Assembly (NCBI GenBank): GCA_023132155.1
Contig: JAGLYP010000005.1
Span: forward strand, 1-60,970
Source: Candidatus Parcubacteria bacterium
Lineage (GTDB): Bacteria > Patescibacteriota > Patescibacteriia > Patescibacteriales > UBA12075
Length of the DNA: 60,970 bases
Direction: 5' to 3'
Within the stretch, counting starts at the first letter, position 1, and the number at the start of each line of letters is the position of its first letter. A program made the position numbers and the translations under genes. This document shows, in pieces, positions 4,592 through 47,757 of the stretch. The notes beneath the pieces were generated by a model. It was not told the origin of the DNA. It did not search any database and saw only the letters and a list, made by a program, of their open reading frames with translations.

Positions 4592-4708
4592 TTTTTTGTG
4601 TCATTGCGAGCGCCAGCGAAGCAAGCCCGTGGTACCTGCACCGTCCGTTGCAAATTCACATACGGTGTTCTGTGACACGGGATTGCTTCGCTGGCGCTCG
4701 CAATGACA
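4592..4708. repeat. MITE-like fold-back element between comEB and dcd
   Basis: A perfect 26-bp inverted repeat, TGTCATTGCGAGCGCCAGCG... at 4599-4624 and its complement at 4683-4708. The arms continue inward with CCCGTG/CACGGG after one unpaired base each, and then CACCGT/ACGGTG, so the whole 110-bp unit can fold into one long hairpin. It is GC-richer than its surroundings. No coding potential. Its left end supplies the first codons of the long version of the dcd ORF. Confidence 0.8.
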
Positions 4709-7305: not shown

Positions 7306-7351
7306 ATGCTAATCCGCGAATAAATGCTAATCCGCGAATTGCGAATAAATT
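7306..7351. repeat. TGCTAATCCGCGAAT repeat, copy 1
   Basis: A tandem pair of ATGCTAATCCGCGAAT units followed by TGCGAATAAATT, just upstream of nusG. Related copies lie upstream of rplL (20772-20815) and of the glycosyltransferase gene at 31800 (reverse orientation). Confidence 0.7.
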
Positions 7352-7680: not shown

Positions 7681-7743
7681 TAATTTATAGTCAAGGAATT
7701 TGAATATTCCCGACTACTGTTAGTGCCCCTTGGGCATAGCTTG
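7681..7743 (+). repeat. 63-bp double-hairpin dispersed element, copy A
   Basis: One of five copies in the window (others at 20058, 32625, 39868, 43704). It starts TAATTTATAGTCAAGGAATT and ends CATAACTTG (CATAGCTTG here). Two hairpins: TAGTC..GGAAT/ATTCC..GACTA, then GTTA.TGCCC/GGGCA.TAAC. This copy differs from the majority sequence at 2 positions, one giving a G-U pair and one in a loop. Read on the minus strand it sits in the secE leader. Confidence 0.9.
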
Positions 7744-8899: not shown

Positions 8900-10005
8900 T
8901 GTTTAATAAGATATTCGCTTATTTAAAAAATTATGACTGGATAATACTTGTATCTATAGTATTATTGATAATTTTCGGTTTGGCGGAAATTTACAGCATT
9001 GCCCTAAGCAATGAAGATTTGAATTTATTAAATTTTAAAAAACAAATATTTTTTGTTGTATTGGGGATGTTTCTGCTGTTTTTTATTTCTTTTTTAGATT
9101 ATTATAATTTAAGAAGTTTTAATGTTTATTTTTACATTGCCGGCGTTTTGCTTTTAACTGCCGTATTGTTTTTCGGTGAAACAATTCGTAATACCACAGG
9201 CTGGTTTGATTTCGGTTTTTTTAATTTGCAACCGGTTGAATTTGTAAAAATATTTTTGTTAATTTTTTTGGCGCGTTATTTTTCCGGCGTATCGGTAAAA
9301 TTAAATCCGTTAAAATATTTAATAATTTCCGGTTTGGCAACAGCCGTGTTAATCGCTTTGGTTTTGTTGCAGCCTGATTTCGGCTCGGCTTTAATTCTTT
9401 TCGCGTTGTGGGGGGCAATGGTTTATATTGCCGGTTTTAGCAAGAAATATATATTAATAATTTTTGTAATTTTATTATTAGTGTTTTTAGGCGGTTGGTT
9501 TTTTTTCTTTGAAGATTATCAGCGGCAGCGCATTATGACTTTTGTAAATCCGGGAGCTGATCCGTTAGATAGGGGTTATAATGTTACTCAAGCGATAATA
9601 GCGGTTGGCTCCGGCGGAATAACAGGCAGGGGAATCGGTTTTGGCTCGCAATCTCAATTGAAGTTTTTGCCCGAAGCGCAAAATGATTTTATTTTCGCGG
9701 TGATTGCCGAGGAATTAGGGTTTTTCGGCGTATTTTTGATTATTGGTTTTTTCTCGGTATTTTACTTTCGCCTAATTCATCATATTGGCAAAATCAAGGA
9801 TGATTTTGGCATTTATTTTATTTTGGGCGCTGTCAGCTTGATTTTTTTGCAAATGTTTATTAATATTGGAATGAACATCGGCTTATTGCCGGTTGTTGGC
9901 CTATCATTGCCTTTTGTCAGTTATGGCGGCAGTGCGATGATTTCCTGTTTAATTATGGTTGGAATACTTGAAAGCATAATAATTCGTTCTAAGATTAAGG
10001 GTTGA
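8899..10005 (+). CDS. rodA: FtsW/RodA/SpoVE family glycan polymerase (RodA-like)
   Basis: A polytopic SEDS-family protein that polymerises peptidoglycan from lipid II together with a class B penicillin-binding protein. 368 aa with about ten hydrophobic helices. SEDS landmarks are GWFDFGFFNLQPVEFVKIFLLIFLA (about 103-127), LLQPDFGSALI (about 157-167), a large extracellular loop with QRIMTFVNPGADPLDRGYNVTQAIIAVGSGGITGRGIGFGSQ, LPEAQNDFIFAVIAEELGFFG, and a C-terminal GLLPVVGLSLPFVSYGGSAMISCL. RodA is favoured over FtsW by length and lack of neighbouring division genes. No partner PBP gene is in the window. Confidence 0.9.
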   Translation: MFNKIFAYLKNYDWIILVSIVLLIIFGLAEIYSIALSNEDLNLLNFKKQIFFVVLGMFLLFFISFLDYYNLRSFNVYFYIAGVLLLTAVLFFGETIRNTTGWFDFGFFNLQPVEFVKIFLLIFLARYFSGVSVKLNPLKYLIISGLATAVLIALVLLQPDFGSALILFALWGAMVYIAGFSKKYILIIFVILLLVFLGGWFFFFEDYQRQRIMTFVNPGADPLDRGYNVTQAIIAVGSGGITGRGIGFGSQSQLKFLPEAQNDFIFAVIAEELGFFGVFLIIGFFSVFYFRLIHHIGKIKDDFGIYFILGAVSLIFLQMFINIGMNIGLLPVVGLSLPFVSYGGSAMISCLIMVGILESIIIRSKIKG

Positions 10006-12045: not shown

Positions 12046-12956
12046 ATAAAAATTTTCACCAATCTATCATGGCCGCGCAGGTCTTTTTTTATTTGAAATT
12101 TTGCCTGTGGGAATTTTTGTTTGATTAATTTTGAAATGTTTGTTTTTTGCGATGGATCAATTTCTAAATACAAGGTTATTTGCGGACAGGCGGATAGATT
12201 GATAGAATTTATTTGATTAAATAATTCGCGATAATATTTTAGTCCGTCATTGCTGGCCGTGAGCGCCAATTTCGGTTCTTTTTGAATGGTTGGAGAATTT
12301 TTGATTTGCGCGGGAGTGAGATAGGGGAGATTAGCGGTGATTATTATGGGATTTTGGGGATTGTTGAGATGTTTGAGATTTTTAGGATTATTTAAAATAG
12401 GCTCAAGCAAATTACCGCAAAGGAATTTGATATTTTTATTTACGCCGCGAGATTTGGCATTTTTTTTAGCGATGTAAAGTGCTTTGGATGAAATGTCAGT
12501 CGCAAAAAAATTAAAGGAGCTTAGCTCCGAAGTTTCGGAGCTAAGCTCCTTTAATTTTTTTGCGAGCGTAATAATAATACACCCACTCCCTGTCCCGATA
12601 TCAATAATTGTTGTGTGCTGTGTGCTGTGTGTTACGTGCTTCAATACTTCATCAACCATTAATTCAGTTTCAGGTCTTGGGACCAGGACGTTTTTATTTA
12701 CAAAAAAATCAAGCCCGTAGAATTCTTTATGTCCTGTAATGTAGGCAATTGGTTCGCCTTTAACTCTGCGGCTGATATATTTTTCAAAAAGTTTTATTTT
12801 TTGATTATTTAAATTTTTATCAAAATGAGTAATAAGATACTCCCGCGAACATTTTAAAATACGCGCCAATAAAATTTCCGCGTCCATATTCGGATTTGGA
12901 ATTTTATTTTTTCGCGATTTTATCGTGGCAATTGCCAACACTTGATTTATTGTCAT
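12042..12956 (-). CDS. prmC: Peptide chain release factor N5-glutamine methyltransferase
   Basis: Methylates the GGQ glutamine of release factors; it lies directly downstream of its substrate gene prfA. 304 aa. The N-terminal helical domain includes EPIAYITGHKEFYGLDFFVNKNVLVPRPETE (about 68-98). The methyltransferase domain has the SAM motif IDIGTGSGC (118-126) and a catalytic-site NLPY (209-212, replacing the usual NPPY). Odd: between the SAM-motif helix and the next strand (ATDIS) there are about 13 extra residues (KELSSETSELSSF), encoded by the centre of a 66-bp palindrome. The 5' end has no Shine-Dalgarno sequence; 42 bases separate it from prfA. Confidence 0.93.
   Translation of the reverse strand: MTINQVLAIATIKSRKNKIPNPNMDAEILLARILKCSREYLITHFDKNLNNQKIKLFEKYISRRVKGEPIAYITGHKEFYGLDFFVNKNVLVPRPETELMVDEVLKHVTHSTQHTTIIDIGTGSGCIIITLAKKLKELSSETSELSSFNFFATDISSKALYIAKKNAKSRGVNKNIKFLCGNLLEPILNNPKNLKHLNNPQNPIIITANLPYLTPAQIKNSPTIQKEPKLALTASNDGLKYYRELFNQINSINLSACPQITLYLEIDPSQKTNISKLIKQKFPQAKFQIKKDLRGHDRLVKIFI
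12500..12565. repeat. 32-bp-arm palindrome inside prmC
   Basis: Perfect inverted repeat, left arm TCGCAAAAAAATTAAAGGAG..., 2-base centre GT, right arm its exact complement. Homologous to the 72-bp palindrome at 17516-17587 (shared TCGCA, AAAA, AGCTTAGCT and CG positions). It is read through in frame. Confidence 0.9.
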
Positions 12957-16305: not shown

Positions 16306-17517
16306 ATGGAAAATGTATCTATATTAGATCAAATTATTGATAATAAAAAAGCGGAAGAAGTTGCGAAACTTGACGCCGTGGAAATAATCAATAATTTATT
16401 TAGCGAGCTTTCCAAGAGAGAGCGCGATGTTGTTATTAGAAGATATGGCCTGCATGGCAAAAACAAAGAAACTTTGGAAAATATCGGCGGAATTCATAGT
16501 CTTACGCGAGAAAGGATTAGGCAAATAGAATTTTCCAGTGTAAAGAAATTACAACAGCTTAAAAATTTGGATTCTTATATAAGCAATTTAAAAAAAGTAA
16601 TTTATCAATTACTGGAGGAGCATGGCGGGTTAATGGAAAAAGAATATTTATTAGAAGCTTTGGTCGGTTTTTCCGTAAACGGATTTAAAGTTGAGGTGGA
16701 AAACAAAGCTATCCATAAAAATTATTTGAATTTTTTAATCACAAAATTACTTCATAATGAATTTGAAGAATATAATAATTCAAAGCATTTTAAAAGTTCG
16801 TATAAATTAAAATTTAGAGAATTAGGCCATTTACAGGCGTTGGTTGAAGAATTATTAATTTTTATTAAAGATAAAAAGGCTTATTACAAAACAGAGGAAA
16901 TAATTAATCATATTTTTAAATTAGATAGTTATAACAAGCATCAAGAAAAAACAGAAACTAATAGCAGTTTGGATATTTCTTGGGTTTTGCAAAATAAATT
17001 TTTTAATGAAAATGCTAAGACAGTTAATGAAAACAAGGCTCTTTATTCGCTGTTGAAATCGGCTAAAAAAATAGAACAAAATAAATTCGGCTATTGGGGG
17101 TTATATAATTCAAGGGAAATTAAGCCTAAAACCATTAATGATAAAATATATTTGATTTTTAAAAATATCGGAGATCCGATGCATTTTGTTGAAATTGCCG
17201 AAAAAATAAATGAAATCGCATTTGACAATAAAAAAGCTAATCCGGCAACGGTCCATAACGAATTAATTTTAGACGATAGATATGTTTTGATTGGCAGAGG
17301 GCTTTACGGCCTTAAGGAATGGGGATATAAAAACGGAACTGTTTCTGATGTAATTGATGAAATTTTTGATGAATCCGAAGAGGACGCCTTAAAAAGAGAA
17401 GATATTATAGAAAAGGTTTTGAAAAAAAGAATGGTAAAAAAGGCAACTATAATTTTAGCTTTAATGGATAAAGATAAATTTACTAAAGTTGATGGAAAAT
17501 ATAGTTTGATAAAATAA
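16306..17517 (+). CDS. Sigma-70 region 4 / HARE-HTH fusion regulator
   Basis: 403 aa from the ATG at 16306; the ORF track starts 10 codons earlier at GTG, with no signal to support it. Residues 30-85 are a sigma-70 region 4 helix-turn-helix: LFSELSKRERDVVIRRYGLHG, then ETLENIGGIHSLTRERIRQIEFSSVKKLQ, which in sigma factors reads the -35 element. Residues 275-340 match the HARE-HTH fold (KIYLIFKNIGDPMHFVEIAEKI ... HNELILDDRYVLIGRGLYGLKEWG), also found in the RNA polymerase delta subunit. Sigma region 2 is absent, so it cannot melt promoters alone. It is probably an RNA polymerase-associated regulator. Preceded by a clear promoter and long leader; followed by a 72-bp palindrome. Confidence 0.8.
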   Translation: MENVSILDQIIDNKKAEEVAKLDAVEIINNLFSELSKRERDVVIRRYGLHGKNKETLENIGGIHSLTRERIRQIEFSSVKKLQQLKNLDSYISNLKKVIYQLLEEHGGLMEKEYLLEALVGFSVNGFKVEVENKAIHKNYLNFLITKLLHNEFEEYNNSKHFKSSYKLKFRELGHLQALVEELLIFIKDKKAYYKTEEIINHIFKLDSYNKHQEKTETNSSLDISWVLQNKFFNENAKTVNENKALYSLLKSAKKIEQNKFGYWGLYNSREIKPKTINDKIYLIFKNIGDPMHFVEIAEKINEIAFDNKKANPATVHNELILDDRYVLIGRGLYGLKEWGYKNGTVSDVIDEIFDESEEDALKREDIIEKVLKKRMVKKATIILALMDKDKFTKVDGKYSLIK

Positions 17518-17587
17518 AAATCGCAGAAAATAAAGAAGCTTAGCTTCGGGTACCCGAAGCTAAGCTTCTTTATTTTCTGCGATTTTT
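17516..17587 (+). terminator. 72-bp perfect palindrome, terminator of the sigma4/HARE gene
   Basis: Arms of 36 bp with no spacer, centre CGGGTACCCG, ending in TTTTT. It begins at the stop codon. The arm is homologous to the palindrome inside prmC. It works as a terminator in form, but the size and the homology point to a mobile palindromic element. Confidence 0.85.
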
Positions 17588-17620
17588 TTATTCCGATTTT
17601 TTTAATATTTTACAAAATTA

Positions 17621-20057: not shown

Positions 20058-20120
20058 CAAGTTATGCCCAAAGGGCACTAACAGTAGTCGGGAATATTCA
20101 AATTCCTTGACTATAAATTA
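20058..20120 (-). repeat. 63-bp double-hairpin dispersed element, copy B
   Basis: Reverse orientation; identical over all 63 bases to copy C (32625-32687). It lies between the rplJ promoter and the L10 leader, so it would be transcribed as the 5' end of the rplJ-rplL message, in the same orientation relative to the gene as copy A upstream of secE. Confidence 0.95.
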
Positions 20121-20771: not shown

Positions 20772-20815
20772 TAATGCTAATCCGCGAATAAATGCTAATA
20801 ATGCGAATTGCTAAT
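20772..20815. repeat. TGCTAATCCGCGAAT repeat, copy 2
   Basis: AATGCTAATCCGCGAATAAA, then ATGCTAATAATGCGAATTGC, in the rplJ-rplL gap. Related to copies at 7306 and 31751. Confidence 0.7.
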
Positions 20816-21330: not shown

Positions 21331-21377
21331 AAACAATAACCCCGCCCCTCGCGAGGGGCGGGGTTTTTTATTGTTTT
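21331..21377 (+). terminator. Terminator of rplJ-rplL
   Basis: A GC-rich perfect stem, ACCCCGCCCCTCG/CGAGGGGCGGGGT, flanked by AACAATA...TATTGTT, with TTTTTT on the 3' side. The same core style recurs at 45431-45482. Confidence 0.95.
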
Positions 21378-21406
21378 TTTATTGGAAATCAATTAAAATA
21401 TAAAAT

Positions 21407-31750: not shown

Positions 31751-31797
31751 TATTCGCAATTCGCAGATTAGCATTTATTCGCATAATTAGCATTATT
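31751..31797. repeat. TGCTAATCCGCGAAT repeat, copy 3 (reverse)
   Basis: TATTCGCAATTCGCAGATTA, then GCATTTATTCGCATAATTAG, directly before the GT gene at 31800; the reverse of the copies at 7306 and 20772. Confidence 0.7.
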
Positions 31798-32624: not shown

Positions 32625-32687
32625 TAATTTATAGTCAAGGAATTTGAATATTCCCGACTACTGTTAGTGCCCTTTGGGCATAACTTG
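32625..32687 (+). repeat. 63-bp double-hairpin dispersed element, copy C
   Basis: Identical to copy B apart from orientation. Located 15 bases after a GT stop codon and about 90 bases before galU. Confidence 0.95.
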
Positions 32688-32708
32688 ATATCAAAATTTT
32701 AATATTAA

Positions 32709-32780
32709 CATTCGGATGTCCCGCACGTGTGCCGTTCTACGGTATTTGTAGTGCGGGTTCGCGAAGCGAATAACTTATGA
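32709..32780 (+). repeat. Hairpin repeat ending at the galU start codon
   Basis: CATTCGGATGTCCCGCAC...GTGCGGGTTCGCGAAGCGAATAACTTATGA. Arms CCCGCAC/GTGCGGG and ATTCG/CGAAT, with a nested CCGT/ACGG. Longer than the rmlA copy by a central insertion. Confidence 0.7.
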
Positions 32781-36409: not shown

Positions 36410-36472
36410 AAATTTATAATATTTTATAAAGGATTGCATTAAAATATGTGATTTTTGTTTTACGTAATTTTT

Positions 36473-37807: not shown

Positions 37808-38680
37808 ATGGCAAACGGATTGGGCCGCGGTTTAGGCTCTTTAATTCCCAATAAAAAAATTCAATCAGGCATAAAGCCCGCCACAGAAGCGGACACGGAT
37901 GTGAATACCGAAAATAATGTTTTGGAATTAGAAATTAATGATATTAAGGTAAATTCTTTGCAGCCCAGAAAAAAATTTACAGATATTAATATGGATGAAT
38001 TAGTTGAGTCAGTTAAGGAATATGGCATAATCCAGCCTTTGATCGTGGGTAAAAAAAAGATTGGCGGTAAATACGAGCTAATAGCCGGCGAAAGAAGATT
38101 GCGCGCGTCTAAATTATCAGGTTTAAAAAAAGTGCCGGTAATATTCAGGGATGTAAGCGAACAGCAAAAATTGGAAGTGGCTTTAATAGAAAATATTCAA
38201 AGAGAAAATCTCAGTCCGATAGATTTGGCAGCGGCTTATCAAAAGCTGGCGGATGAGTTTAATTTAACACAGGAAGAAATCGCCAAAAAAATGGGCAAAT
38301 CCCGTTCTTCTGTTGCGAATATTTTGCGCATGTTAAAATTGCCGGAAGAAATTCAGATTGCTTTGGTTGATAATAATATTACCGAAGGGCACGCGAAATA
38401 TTTAATCGGCCTTGATTCCGAGGTTAAGCAAATGTCTTTATTCAGGAAAATACTTCATAATAATTTATCGGTTAGCGATACGAATAATGAAATTAAAAAA
38501 ATCGGCGGCACTAAAAAAGCGCGCTTAAAAATAAATTACGCCGATAAAGACAAAGAATTCGCTTTTCGCGAATTTTTCGGGGCCAGAGTTGAGATTAAAA
38601 GAAAAGAAAAGGGAGGGCAAGTTATTATTGAATTTTTTTCAGATGATGAATTGCTAGAATTAACCGCAAAAGTAAAATGA
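37808..38680 (+). CDS. parB: Chromosome-partitioning protein ParB
   Basis: Binds parS and loads SMC. 290 aa. Canonical N-terminus NGLGRGLGSLIPNKK, CTP-binding/ParB domain with SLQPRKKFTDINMDELVESVKEYGIIQPLIV and AGERRLRASKLSGLKKVPVIFRD, the HTH LTQEEIAKKMGKSRSSVANILRMLKLP, and a C-terminal dimerisation region. No ParA gene lies alongside. The stop overlaps the MFS start by 4 bases (ATGA). No convincing parS is seen in the window. Confidence 0.95.
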   Translation: MANGLGRGLGSLIPNKKIQSGIKPATEADTDVNTENNVLELEINDIKVNSLQPRKKFTDINMDELVESVKEYGIIQPLIVGKKKIGGKYELIAGERRLRASKLSGLKKVPVIFRDVSEQQKLEVALIENIQRENLSPIDLAAAYQKLADEFNLTQEEIAKKMGKSRSSVANILRMLKLPEEIQIALVDNNITEGHAKYLIGLDSEVKQMSLFRKILHNNLSVSDTNNEIKKIGGTKKARLKINYADKDKEFAFREFFGARVEIKRKEKGGQVIIEFFSDDELLELTAKVK

Positions 38681-39870
38681 CGGTAAAAATTTTTAATTAC
38701 CATATAATAAGGCATGCTATTCATAATCGTTATTATGATTTGGTAATCGCGGATACTCTAAGAAGCGCCGCCCTTTCAATGGTCGCGCTTTTTGTGCCTT
38801 TGTTTTTGCTTAAAAAAGGCTATGAGATTGGCGCAATCGCGGTTTATTATTTGTGTTTTTATATTTTGTCAACAATCGGGCATTATGTTTTATTAAAAGT
38901 TATTAACAAAATCGGCATTAAAAAAAGTTTGATAATCAGTTACGCGGCGGAAATAATTTTTTGCGTTGTTTTATATAATTATGAAAAAATATCCGTCGCT
39001 TTCGGGGATAATTTTTATTTTTTATTTTTGATTATACCGGCGGTTGTAGCAGTTGTTTTTTACTGGACTGCTCATCATATTTATTTTTTTGTTTCCACGC
39101 ACGTGAAAAATGAAGGCGTTAAACTCGGTTTTCTTTACGCGATTCCAGCTATCTTGACAATCTTTACGCCTTTTTTAGGCGGTTTTTTAATTACCACGCT
39201 TGGTTTTAAACTGACATTTGTTGTTAGCGCGATTTTGTTAATATTCGCGTCAGCGGTTTTATTTTTATCCAAAAGTATAAAAGCGCGAGTTGATATTCAA
39301 ACCGATAAAATATTTGATTTTTATCGTGATAATAAAAATTGGATTTATTTTGTTGAAGGCGTTGATTATTTTGCAGCGGGAATAATTTGGCCGATCTATA
39401 TGTTTTTTATGTCAATCAGTTTTCTGTCAATCGGATTTATTTATATTTTTGCCAATATCGCTTATGTAGTTTCTTGCTATGTAAGCGGAAAGATATCAGA
39501 TAAAATCGGCACAAGGAATTTAGGCAGGGCGGGCGTAATCGGGCATGCTGCTTCCTTGGCTTTAAGAGCTTTTTCCGAGAGAGTGTTATCAATGTCAATA
39601 GCTTTGACATTGGGCGGCTTATTTACTGGAGCAATGCAAGTTTCTTTGGAATCCGCGTTTTTCAAACATTCGCACAAAAATATCGGTAGCGCCATCATGA
39701 ATAGAGAATTGTATATGCATTTGGGGCGAATTTTTATGGTTTTATTATTCTTGTTTTGTTTATTGATTTACAATATTCATATTTCCCTGGTTTTTATTTT
39801 GCTGTTTTCGGCTTTTGCTACTTTTATGTTAAATTTTGTTATTAAAAAGGATAAGATTATCATAGATTAA
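38677..39870 (+). CDS. Major facilitator superfamily transporter
   Basis: 397 aa, about twelve hydrophobic helices. The A-like loop motif between helices is degenerate (YVSGKISDKIGTRNLGRAG around residue 266). Substrate unknown. Coupled to parB by a 4-base overlap, though the two need not be functionally linked. The stop codon TAA is the first three bases of copy D of the 63-bp element, suggesting insertion at the gene's very end. Confidence 0.82.
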   Translation: MTVKIFNYHIIRHAIHNRYYDLVIADTLRSAALSMVALFVPLFLLKKGYEIGAIAVYYLCFYILSTIGHYVLLKVINKIGIKKSLIISYAAEIIFCVVLYNYEKISVAFGDNFYFLFLIIPAVVAVVFYWTAHHIYFFVSTHVKNEGVKLGFLYAIPAILTIFTPFLGGFLITTLGFKLTFVVSAILLIFASAVLFLSKSIKARVDIQTDKIFDFYRDNKNWIYFVEGVDYFAAGIIWPIYMFFMSISFLSIGFIYIFANIAYVVSCYVSGKISDKIGTRNLGRAGVIGHAASLALRAFSERVLSMSIALTLGGLFTGAMQVSLESAFFKHSHKNIGSAIMNRELYMHLGRIFMVLLFLFCLLIYNIHISLVFILLFSAFATFMLNFVIKKDKIIID

Positions 39871-39930
39871 TTTATAGTCAAGGAATTTGAATATTCCCGA
39901 CTACTGTTGGTGCCCTTTGGGCATAACTTG
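39868..39930 (+). repeat. 63-bp double-hairpin dispersed element, copy D
   Basis: One difference from copies B and C (GTTGG for GTTAG, kept as a G-U pair in the hairpin). It starts exactly at the stop codon of the MFS gene and lies upstream of dnaE. Confidence 0.95.
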
Positions 39931-43703: not shown

Positions 43704-43766
43704 TAATTTATAGTCAAGGAATTTGAATGTTCCCGACTACTGTTAATGCCCTTTGGGTATAACTTG
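43704..43766 (+). repeat. 63-bp double-hairpin dispersed element, copy E
   Basis: The most diverged copy: three changes (ATGTTCC, TTAATGCC, GGGTATAAC), two of them keeping pairing by G-U and one at the bulged base. It ends 10 bases before the ATG at 43777, in forward orientation. Confidence 0.9.
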
Positions 43767-43776
43767 AAATAATATT

Positions 43777-45432
43777 ATGGCCGCAAGCGCAATAAAAATA
43801 AAAGTTGTTGACGAGGATAATCAGGCATCTGAAAAGAAAAAGAAAACAACCAAAAAAACCGTAACTGGAAAATCTAAAGAAAAAATCGTATTTAAGATTC
43901 CTAAAAAAGCCGCAAAAAAGCCGGCCGCAAAAAATTTCCCTGTTAAAAAAACAACAACAGGAAAAACCGCTAAAATAAAAAATGCCGGTATAGGCAAAAA
44001 AGAGGGTATAAATATTGATAATCAAAAAGCGGGAGATATAAAAGATGATAAGCGGGAAAAAAGAAAAGTTTTATCGGAAAGAATTGGCGGTTTAGGAGAA
44101 AAATTGGATACGGAAGAAGAGAAAAGCGATATTAAAACAGATGAATATGTTAATGCTGAATTAAAAAATGATGAAGCTGGAGAAGCGGGCGTAAGTCCGG
44201 TTAAAAATGTTATTGCCGAATTAGAAAAAAATGGCTCGCAAGAAAAAGATGGCAAAGAAGAGAAATGGGATAAAGAAGAAAAGGCTGAAGAATCAAAAAT
44301 ATATATATCCCAATCAATAAATATTTATCGGCGGATTGCGTATTTTTTTATATTTTTAGTAATTATTTTGGTTGGTTTTATTGCTTATTTTTCCCTAGTA
44401 AAAGTTGATATTATTCTTGTGCCAAACCAAGAAAGAATCAGTAATAACGTGATTTTTGATATATATGATAAAGAATCCAGAAAAAGCGAGAGTGGCAACG
44501 CAATTATTGGCATTGTTAGGGACGCTGTAGTAACAGCTGAAAAAGAGTTTGAATCCGGAGGAAACGAGGTGATTGGCAAGGAGGTAAGCGGAAATGTGGT
44601 CATCTATAATAATTATACGAAAAATCAGCCGCTTGTTGCCAGCACAAGACTATTAACGCGGGACGGAAAATTATTTAGGATTAGAAATACAATCAATGTG
44701 CCGTCTAACGGATCAATTGAAGTTGAAGTTTACGCGGACAAACCATGTCCTGAAATGGCTGTTAAATCGGCTAAATTCACAATTCCCGGACTATGGGCGG
44801 GTTTGCAGGAAAAAATATACGCTGAAACTAAAACCAGTTTAGATTATAAACAAAAAGTTAAAAAATATATAACCCAGAATGATGTTGATGACAAAGCGCG
44901 CGAATTAAAGCAACTTTTGCTAAAAAAAGCTAAAGAAGAAATTAACGAAGAATATAAAGAATATAGCCAGATAATTTATAAGATAAATGAAAATTCAGTT
45001 GAAAGCGAAATTGATAAAAAAGTTGGAGATGAGGTTGATACTTTTAATTACAGCATGTCGGCCGAGGTGGTTGTAGTTGCCTTTGATGAAAATAAAACCG
45101 CGAAATTAGCTAAACAGAAATTTTTGTCAGCATTAAGCGGGAATAAAGATTTAATTAGTTTTGACGAGGAAAACATAGTTTATTCTTTAAATAATTTTGA
45201 TACTGACGCGAGAACCGCGAATATTAACGCGTCATTTGAAGGCAAGGTTGGCTTAAAGAAAGATTGTGATGTTGTTGAAGTTGAAAAAATATTAGGCTTG
45301 AACAATGAGCAATTGGAAGTTTATTTGAAAAATTTAGATGAAATTGCAGGGTATGAAATTAAATATACGCCTAGCTTTATTAAAAAAGTGCCGAAATTAA
45401 TTGACCGCGTAAATATAGAAATTAAAAAATAA
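43777..45432 (+). CDS. Lys-rich, single-pass membrane protein (Patescibacteria type)
   Basis: 551 aa. Residues 1-180 are low-complexity Lys/Ala/Glu/Thr, probably disordered and cytoplasmic. A membrane helix lies at about 188-209 (YFFIFLVIILVGFIAYFSLV). The exported part includes GNVVIYNNYTKNQPLVASTRLLTRDGKLFRIRNTINVPSNGSIEVEVYAD (about 275-325), reminiscent of beta domains found in baseplate-J-like proteins of CPR bacteria. The rest alternates helix and strand. Function unknown. It faces the 758-aa protein across a shared 52-bp palindrome. Confidence 0.75.
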   Translation: MAASAIKIKVVDEDNQASEKKKKTTKKTVTGKSKEKIVFKIPKKAAKKPAAKNFPVKKTTTGKTAKIKNAGIGKKEGINIDNQKAGDIKDDKREKRKVLSERIGGLGEKLDTEEEKSDIKTDEYVNAELKNDEAGEAGVSPVKNVIAELEKNGSQEKDGKEEKWDKEEKAEESKIYISQSINIYRRIAYFFIFLVIILVGFIAYFSLVKVDIILVPNQERISNNVIFDIYDKESRKSESGNAIIGIVRDAVVTAEKEFESGGNEVIGKEVSGNVVIYNNYTKNQPLVASTRLLTRDGKLFRIRNTINVPSNGSIEVEVYADKPCPEMAVKSAKFTIPGLWAGLQEKIYAETKTSLDYKQKVKKYITQNDVDDKARELKQLLLKKAKEEINEEYKEYSQIIYKINENSVESEIDKKVGDEVDTFNYSMSAEVVVVAFDENKTAKLAKQKFLSALSGNKDLISFDEENIVYSLNNFDTDARTANINASFEGKVGLKKDCDVVEVEKILGLNNEQLEVYLKNLDEIAGYEIKYTPSFIKKVPKLIDRVNIEIKK

Positions 45433-45482
45433 TTTAAAATAAAACCCCGCCCTTCGCGAAGGGCGGGGTTTTATTTTAAATT
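45431..45482. terminator. Bidirectional terminator (52-bp perfect palindrome)
   Basis: AATTTAAAATAAAACCCCGC... reads the same on both strands without a spacer (centre TTCGCGAA). It reaches into the stop codon of the minus-strand gene. AT arms give T-runs in both directions. Confidence 0.95.
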
Positions 45483-47757
45483 ATTCATTCAAATGAGTCA
45501 AATCCGCCTGATAAACAGAATTATCGTTTAAGAGATAGACTCTTTTATTTGCTTCATCAAGCGCGAAATCTTTTAAGGAAGAAAAAATTTTTTCCATGTA
45601 TTGCATAATAAATTGCCCGTTTTTATCATAAACAATAAGTCTTTTTTCGCTTGGCTCCAAAATATATAAGTAATCATTTTTTTCTGAGGCCTGAATTTTA
45701 ATCGGATTGACAAGCGGCGGTTCAATTGCTTCAAGACTGAAATCAAGCGCTTTACCTCGCAAATATTTTACTGCCTGATTATTTTTGCCTAAAACATAAA
45801 TATGCCCGTCAATAGACATGCTTACAAAATCATCAATTAAAACCGGTTCCTGTATCCACGCATAAGGAGATGAAAAAGAGCGGTTCGTTGCGCCGAAGCG
45901 CAGTATTTGTTTGTTTTTCTTGTCTAAAAGATATAGGCGATTATTATAATTATCTAAATCCGCGATTTCTCCGTTATTAGCGTTTATTGGATAATTTTTT
46001 AAACTATTATTTTCAAGATCGTATGTTAGCAATGAATTTTGGCTGGAGTAATAAATTTTAGAATCATTGATTATAGTAGGCGAGTTCATGCCTAAAATTT
46101 CTTGTTCTAAATTGGTAAAAGTTGTAGCCGTACTATCATTCGCGTCAAAAATAAAAATTGATTTTTGCAGTGAATCGGCAATATATATTTTGTTATTTTT
46201 TGGCGAATAAACAAGATTTTCCGTACTTGATTCCGGTATAATGCTTGATATATTAATTAATTTTTTCGCGTTCGCGAAATGCTCCATTCTTCTTATTTTT
46301 TCTAAGAAAGAATTATATTTTTCATCAAATTCAGAATATTGCTTAATTTGTTCATCGGTTTGTTGCGGCAATTCAGCTAGTAAAGCCTTAATTTCATCGT
46401 ATAGCTTTCCAGCGCCCTCTTCATTGCTAAATAGCATATTAGCCTCTGCCTGGTTTTGTTTTTGCTCAATTACGGTTTTTATTTCATCAAAATTTTTTTC
46501 AATTTTAATTTCTTTTTGCTTATTTCTTTCAAATAAAAGGTTGGTGGAAAAAATAATTATAATTGCTATTGCCAAAAACAATAGCGCCTTGTTTTTTAAA
46601 TTAAGTTTTTTAAAACAGTTATTTTTTAAGGCTGTAAAAGAATTTATTTTTATAATATTTTTGTAATCTTTTTTTGTAATTAATCGTTTAAAAAAAGAAA
46701 TTAGCCTACTGCTTAAATTTATAAAGATATTAGCGATAACCGAAAAAATATTTTTTAAAGCGTTTAGGAGCGTTTTTTTGCGTTTAACTAAAATTTTATC
46801 CTTAAGTCCCAGTGATTTTTTGGAGGATTTTAAATGACTGGCCGATAATTTATCGCTTAACAAGCTAAGCCATCTTTTAGGATTTATGATTCCTGCGGGA
46901 GATAAAAGATTTTCCGTAGTATCTTCAGTTCGGTTAAGGTCTACTATGGATTTGCCAACAGAATTTTTCGCTGGAGCGCTGATTTTGTTTTCAACAAAAT
47001 TTATTTCCCGGCTTTTTATGATTATTCCCACGAAAGAAATGTAGGAATTTATTTTTGCTAAAGTTTGTTTAATTTGTTCAACCGCTCCGATTGGCGGCAG
47101 TAAAGTTATTGTATCTATAATTTGTTTTTTTGAAAAATATTCAGGCAATGTTTCATTTGTTATGAAAAAATATGACTGTGGCGGTATTTTTCCGCTAATA
47201 ACATTGGAAAAAATTTTATTTTGATTATTTTTTTCTTCAATGTTTGAGTTTGCTTGATTTATAATATCAACAATCTTATAAATAAACCGCTCTTCATCGC
47301 CGTGGCTTTGATTTTTGCATTTATTATCTTTCGTTTTGTAAATTAAAAAGGCTTTATTTTTATTGGAACTGCTTAGATAAAGGTTTTTGTCATGAACAAC
47401 TCCGGCGCTAATATTTATTGTTGAAATTTTAGTTTTGATTTTAGCGCTTTCTAAGTATTTTTTGAAATTTTTATTTGTTTTAGCGAGAGCAGCCTCAAAA
47501 ATATGTTCAATTTTTAGGGTGGAAATTTTTTCTCTTAACAGTATTTTTTCATTTTGATAGTAATTACGGCTTAAAAAATCAATTAAAAAGTTTATTATTT
47601 TTAAACTGTCAGCGTTATTTTCTTCAATTTCAATTAAAATAAATAATTTTCCAGCCAAATATTCTTTATGCGCGTCAACTTGCGCGACAAAAAGTTCGCA
47701 AACCGTTTTTGCGTTTTTTCCCGGGGTTAAAATTAATTGCGCGATTTTATGTTTCAT
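45481..47757 (-). CDS. Membrane protein: PP2C-like N-terminus, coiled coil, propeller
   Basis: 758 aa. Residues 1-250 are reminiscent of a PP2C-type phosphatase fold (SAGVVHDKNLYLSSSNKNKAFLIYKT; SNVISGKIPPQSYFFITNETLPEYFSKKQII), but the metal-binding aspartates are not obvious, so it may be inactive. A basic linker leads to a membrane helix (about 390-408), then a coiled coil (about 410-490). The C-terminal 260 residues have repeated strands such as NLVYSPKNNKIYIADSLQKSIFIFD and NNRLYLLDKKNKQILRFGA, an NHL-like beta-propeller outside the cell. Possibly a signal-transducing or scaffold protein; function unknown. Confidence 0.75.
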   Translation of the reverse strand: MKHKIAQLILTPGKNAKTVCELFVAQVDAHKEYLAGKLFILIEIEENNADSLKIINFLIDFLSRNYYQNEKILLREKISTLKIEHIFEAALAKTNKNFKKYLESAKIKTKISTINISAGVVHDKNLYLSSSNKNKAFLIYKTKDNKCKNQSHGDEERFIYKIVDIINQANSNIEEKNNQNKIFSNVISGKIPPQSYFFITNETLPEYFSKKQIIDTITLLPPIGAVEQIKQTLAKINSYISFVGIIIKSREINFVENKISAPAKNSVGKSIVDLNRTEDTTENLLSPAGIINPKRWLSLLSDKLSASHLKSSKKSLGLKDKILVKRKKTLLNALKNIFSVIANIFINLSSRLISFFKRLITKKDYKNIIKINSFTALKNNCFKKLNLKNKALLFLAIAIIIIFSTNLLFERNKQKEIKIEKNFDEIKTVIEQKQNQAEANMLFSNEEGAGKLYDEIKALLAELPQQTDEQIKQYSEFDEKYNSFLEKIRRMEHFANAKKLINISSIIPESSTENLVYSPKNNKIYIADSLQKSIFIFDANDSTATTFTNLEQEILGMNSPTIINDSKIYYSSQNSLLTYDLENNSLKNYPINANNGEIADLDNYNNRLYLLDKKNKQILRFGATNRSFSSPYAWIQEPVLIDDFVSMSIDGHIYVLGKNNQAVKYLRGKALDFSLEAIEPPLVNPIKIQASEKNDYLYILEPSEKRLIVYDKNGQFIMQYMEKIFSSLKDFALDEANKRVYLLNDNSVYQADLTHLNE

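Follow-up and report, generated by a model that had tools for sequence, protein, structure and literature searches.

A gene-less double hairpin that inserts precisely at an AT-rich target in Patescibacteria genomes

The window, by which we mean the whole stretch of 60,970 nucleotides that was analyzed, is contig C38 of a Candidatus Parcubacteria genome (G000; 1.23 Mb, completeness 98.8%) and harbors five copies of a short double hairpin for which mobility is strongly supported. The element inserts precisely on the 3' side of the AT-rich sequence TAATTTA as an exact unit of 56 nucleotides (or 75 nucleotides), and we have little doubt that it is a mobile element. Mobile double-hairpin elements have so far been discussed almost entirely from mitochondria. 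A bacterial family with exact empty sites, a target, identical copies that multiplied recently and module variants renders testable the question of what moves a hairpin that carries no gene, and it shows active reshaping of very small genomes within the Candidate Phyla Radiation. The nearest protein relatives of the DNA polymerase III alpha gene of the window are from Falkowbacteria/Parcubacteria MAGs.

An initial annotation of the window had described a 63-base element at five places, and we located copies at all five. The mobile unit is, however, the 56 nucleotides TAGTC…CTTG, because empty sites in sister genomes carry the leading TAATTTA as pre-existing target sequence. Hairpin 1 (TAGTC-aa-GGAAT...ATTCC-c-GACTA) is followed by CT, hairpin 2 (GTTA-TGCCC-ttt-GGGCA-TAAC) and a terminal TTG, with the pairings that the annotation had proposed. 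On the forward strand, copy A (locus L012) occupies 7688..7743 behind its target heptamer TAATTTA at 7681..7687, and copy C occupies 32632..32687 behind the same heptamer at 32625..32631. Copy B, which is identical to copy C and has the commonest sequence, lies on the reverse strand at 20058..20113, with TAATTTA at 20114..20120. Copy D (39875..39930, forward strand) lies four bases past the end of an MFS-type gene (38677-39870), whose TAA stop codon forms the first three bases of the target heptamer (39868..39874, forward strand); we rejected the idea that copy D was the source of a new stop codon, since a stop is present at this place in the empty sites as well. Copy E (43711..43766, forward strand; TAATTTA at 43704..43710) ends 10 bases upstream of the ATG of an open reading frame at 43777-45432. 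Relative to the commonest sequence, copies A to E have 2, 0, 0, 1 and 3 differences, and, as the annotation had it, four of these six create G-T/U pairs and two fall in the loop or the bulge.

The 56-nucleotide core with at most three mismatches was matched five times in the window and not once in 100 dinucleotide shuffles of it. No Rfam family or tRNA matched at the element, and a more permissive scan of variant copies gave no match there either; the element is not a known Rfam family or tRNA. Because shuffles predict no matches, the Rfam and tRNA scans were negative at the element, and the element is present in independent assemblies, we regard chance, an assembly artefact or an ordinary repeat (tRNA, CRISPR or terminator) as an exceedingly improbable explanation, which these results refute and in favor of which we found nothing.

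To recover unoccupied sites we joined the flanks of each copy in G000 and searched the joined sequences against the genomes of sister species. Orthologous empty sites were recovered for many copies, and four of the five copies in the window (A, B, D and E) are missing from the orthologous place in sister genomes. The empty site for copy A in the sister genome G002 (L153) reads TTAATTTT|TGTATTT, in which one base of the target is changed. The junctions for copies B (L159/L162, with one ambiguous T), D (L155/L160) and E (L164/L169) were less exact, and no empty site was resolved for copy C. Across the genus, four junctions were exact to the base and had neither a duplication nor a deletion of the target. 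Copy L003 corresponds to an empty site (L151) with the junction AATTTA|ATTTAT, and copy L006 to one (L152) in which AATTTA is intact. Copy L013, a 75-nucleotide form with a second hairpin 2, corresponds to AATTTA|TTTTAATT at L154 and L156. In the reciprocal case, an AATTTA in the window that lacks the element (36411..36416, forward strand) is the empty counterpart of a 56-nucleotide copy in G002 (L044), which is inserted exactly after position 36416 (AATTTA|TAATATT at 36416|36417). A TA duplication hinted at by the first empty site was rejected, as it was absent from the other junctions, and the element ends and junctions revealed neither a TIR nor a TSD. Among 49 copies the left flank was TAATTTA, with AATTTA as the consensus and T at position -3 in every one, and five of the seven bases of TAATTTA are the same as those of the right end, TAACTTG. 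These precise empty sites bear out mobility, which the annotation had proposed in calling the element a possible non-autonomous mobile palindrome.

A genome-wide count of copies, which had been recommended in the annotation, was obtained with a covariance model search. For these three genomes of one genus it gave 24 copies in G000, some with extra hairpin modules, 21 in G002 and two in a second sister genome (G001), the assembly of which is incomplete. Nine of the 24 are identical across the target hexamer and the element. Fifteen are of the simple 56-nucleotide form; others contain, within hairpin 1, an inner hairpin of 27 nucleotides (CCCCAAGGgcacttCCTTTGGGG) or 30 nucleotides (CCTCCCGAGGCGGATCAGCCTCGGG...), a further class has a duplicated hairpin 2, and one copy (L024) combines two such changes. 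At two orthologous sites that are occupied in both genomes (L018 in G000 and L043 in the sister; L019 and L139), only the G000 copy has the inner hairpin, from which it follows that modules are gained or lost after insertion. One copy (L142) is truncated and lacks hairpin 2. We found no long version in which a gene separates the two hairpins; the distant partial matches were the copies with inserted modules and L142.

Diverged relatives with the same two-hairpin plan were found in other genera with a family search model built from 13 diverged sequences: about 27 matches in G007 (the weakest of which may in some cases be due to chance), nine in G030, five in G013, three in G056, two in G011 and one each in G005 and G006. 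Their distribution is patchy, in that, of 380 genomes sampled from within the class, only five gave a match at E<=5e-4. The type in G007, G030 and G013 is roughly TTTTTA|TGGTC-AAGGAA...TTCCCGACCATAC-AAAAAGCC-TTT-GGCTTTTTATA. The related subfamily inserts in terminator T-tracts, with no duplication or deletion of the target: one copy (L227) sits within such a T-tract, and the corresponding terminator in G012 is conserved but lacks the element. In G056 two elements 2.9 kb apart flank an open reading frame for an ATPase-like protein, not a transposase. Searches of viral contigs, phages and plasmids for the element gave no match. A 4-kb contig assigned to another order (G373:C19; L225/L269) has one exact copy with an AATTTA flank, reflecting either horizontal transfer or a mis-binned contig, and two copies in G007 (L254 and L259) seem to occupy the loop of a palindrome (CATCCTCGG...CCGGGGATCC), as though nested within a repeat of REP-like type.

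The fold of the element, more than its sequence, is conserved and under selection, be it as RNA or as single-stranded DNA. When 13 sequences were aligned unguided, 93% of the cells were paired and two-sided changes occurred at 10 of the 19 pairs, with 24 two-sided cells as compared to 6.9 in shuffles. When 69 distinct sequences were fitted to the model, 17 of the 19 pairs covaried (207 cells as compared to 66 in shuffles). Since the larger alignment leans toward its model and its related rows are not independent, the case for selection rests on the two results jointly. This covariation across genera supports the view in the annotation that structure is under selection, and random substitutions in the stems, which would have spoken against that view, were not observed. 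One-sided changes across the family were similar in number (41 G-T and 62 A-C cells), so strand asymmetry is not decisive.

Could the fold be that of a structured RNA that serves the host at many operons, in cis-regulation, processing or stability, rather than that of a selfish element? The conservation of the fold and its extensive covariation would suit such a role, as would four copies in G007 that lie in the sense orientation between genes of a ribosomal protein operon and before secY. Orientation in general tells against it. All 24 copies in G000 are located between predicted genes and occur in both orientations (where the context is tandem, about 10 are in sense and 9 in antisense), and outside the genus the numbers are 17 sense versus 9 antisense. 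Given, in addition, the empty orthologous sites in sister species and the nine identical copies at unrelated loci, we consider a host function very unlikely.

How, then, does the element move? It is a non-autonomous mobile element that consists solely of two adjacent hairpins. To explain its movement we favor, tentatively and at a little under even likelihood, a peel-and-paste reaction of the HUH Y1 type or one that is functionally close to it. A putative enzyme encoded elsewhere would act on the element in trans: it would recognize the folded single strand, cut at TAACTTG on the right end and at TAATTTA, a similar sequence, in the left flank, and then move the strand. We infer mobilization of the folded strand in trans by analogy, from the resemblance of the anatomy of the element to the signature of the IS200/IS605 family, whose members have hairpins at their ends, lack TIRs and TSDs, and insert 3' of a fixed target of 4-5 nucleotides (PMC7290912, PMC6006769). 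The likeness of TAATTTA to TAACTTG supports this reading, as the left and right cleavage sites of IS200/IS605 elements are recognized in equivalent ways (PMC6006769). As regards guide tetranucleotides, which in that family stand at the feet of the hairpins and pair with the cleavage sites, complementarity between CAAG and CTTG and between T(G/A)AAT and ATTTA was judged by eye only.

Other results weaken the HUH-type reading. In the genomes examined, none of the copies has a Y1 gene next to it. In G000, G001 and G002 the Y1 genes are accompanied by their own, unrelated palindromes, and no Y1 match was found in G030 (nine copies) or G006 (one copy); a Y1 transposase is thus not supported as a linked partner. 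The IS200-type Y1 gene of G000 (L128, G000:C7:4438-4752) is, by our own reading, seemingly frameshifted ahead of the catalytic tyrosine, and an autonomous relative with a Y1 tnpA between the same ends was not found. The hairpins abut the ends of the element rather than being subterminal. Lagging-strand transposition would lead one to expect an orientation bias; relative to GC skew, 43 of 71 copies were on the G-rich strand, with no clear bias (p=0.096, not significant).

An unlinked enzyme of another kind, namely a tyrosine, serine, IS110-like or undescribed recombinase acting in trans on folded or double-stranded ends, would fit the missing Y1 partner, and the motif common to the left target and the right end is of a kind that recombinase core sites can have. 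The junctions, on the other hand, exhibit neither a shared dinucleotide core nor a duplication, and most such enzymes have no need of a strong, conserved single-strand fold. We judge this alternative unlikely. We hold to be similarly improbable that the elements represent an undescribed class of bacterial transposable element, present in several families of Patescibacteria, that is defined by the two-hairpin fold alone, undergoes insertion and duplication of modules, and moves as single-stranded DNA or RNA by means of an enzyme other than a resident Y1 transposase or a reverse transcriptase.

An RNA intermediate would offer a different route: the double hairpin would be transcribed and then copied into DNA, with AT-rich targets or the T-tracts of terminators as the sites. 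In its favor, 10 of the 37 relatives outside the genus lie directly behind a strong hairpin with a T-tract, as compared to 0.5% in shuffled flanks, but terminators are common in intergenic DNA and adjacency is hence no proof of target choice. The lack of a TSD and the strong covariation of the fold would also accord with an RNA route, which has been argued for the double-hairpin elements of Allomyces mitochondria from their lack of flanking duplications (PMC2800124). Against it, no reverse transcriptase (PF00078) was matched in G000, G007, G030 or G056, and the copies have exact ends without 5' truncation; one copy (L142) lacks hairpin 2. We rejected a reverse transcriptase as the mover, as it is absent from the copy-richest genomes except G002, and we consider the RNA route rather improbable.

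In anatomy and behavior the element works like mitochondrial double-hairpin elements and GC clusters, the former being its nearest described analogue. Like the element described here, the double-hairpin elements of Allomyces and other mitochondrial repetitive hairpin-forming elements (RHE) are tens of bases long, have two hairpins, are intergenic, are optional between close relatives and occur in double and triple hairpin forms; those of Allomyces also lack flanking duplications (PMC2800124). The present element differs in residing in bacterial chromosomes, where its empty sites are exact to the base, its target motif is defined and its fold covaries across genera, and we treat the likeness as analogy, the element being too short for homology to be inferred. 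Yeast mitochondrial GC clusters (GC42) are likewise short mobile palindromes whose hairpin modules merge by nesting and are shuffled, with presence or absence at homologous sites, but their flanks have AG or ACT repeats, interpreted as duplications of the target, which our element lacks (PMC4478555). The REP/BIME palindromes mobilized by RAYT (TnpA-REP) are similar in being short extragenic hairpins that number in the tens and are presumed to be mobilized in trans. The definition of a REP includes the tetranucleotide GTAG or GTGG on the 5' side of its hairpin (PMC6006769). Our alignments show no such tetranucleotide at a hairpin foot, the two fused hairpins are dissimilar, and the RAYT of G000 is beside another palindrome and was not found in G001 or G002. 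IS200/IS605-derived palindrome-associated elements (PATEs) share with the element hairpins at the ends, the lack of TIRs and TSDs, and insertion 3' of a short sequence resembling the right end. They differ from it in that the element has hairpins flush with its very ends, no remnant of TnpA or TnpB, no autonomous parent that we could find, and an AT-rich target of about 7 nucleotides. Because the tested defining feature was lacking, we do not file the element under REP/RAYT or under IS200/IS605 derivatives with a known parent. A group II intron was rejected on the basis of the 56-nucleotide length, the ends (TAGTC...CTTG, not GUGYG...AY), the lack of an Rfam match and the lack of a reverse transcriptase in G000. 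A literature search, for which subscription journals were mostly out of reach, found no bacterial double-hairpin element.

Finally, we note that the window contains other palindromes. One (GAAGCTTAGCTTCGGGTACCCGAAGCTAAGCTTC) is located directly downstream of the RAYT-like gene of G000 (L129), may be that gene's own REP, and is found again at 17511-17592, with a relative at 12500-12565. A second family (AATAAATGCTAATCCGCGAATTGCGAATA) is present at 7306-7349, 20774-20799 and 31751-31782 and at L196 (about 9527-9640). At one orthologous locus G000 has this repeat where G002 has the double-hairpin element (L039), hinting that the two share insertion hot spots. A repeat at 32700-32770 (AATATTCGGATGTCCCGC...GCGGGTTCGCGAAGCGAATAAC; also L146, L133 and L144) sometimes lies behind a stretch resembling hairpin 1 (GTAAAGGAATTTGAATATT) and is possibly a chimeric or related element. 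Strong palindromes (TGTCATTGCGAGCG... and AACCCCGCCC...GGGCGGGGTT) are located at 4599-4708, 21331-21388 and 45428-45485, the latter two being terminator-like.
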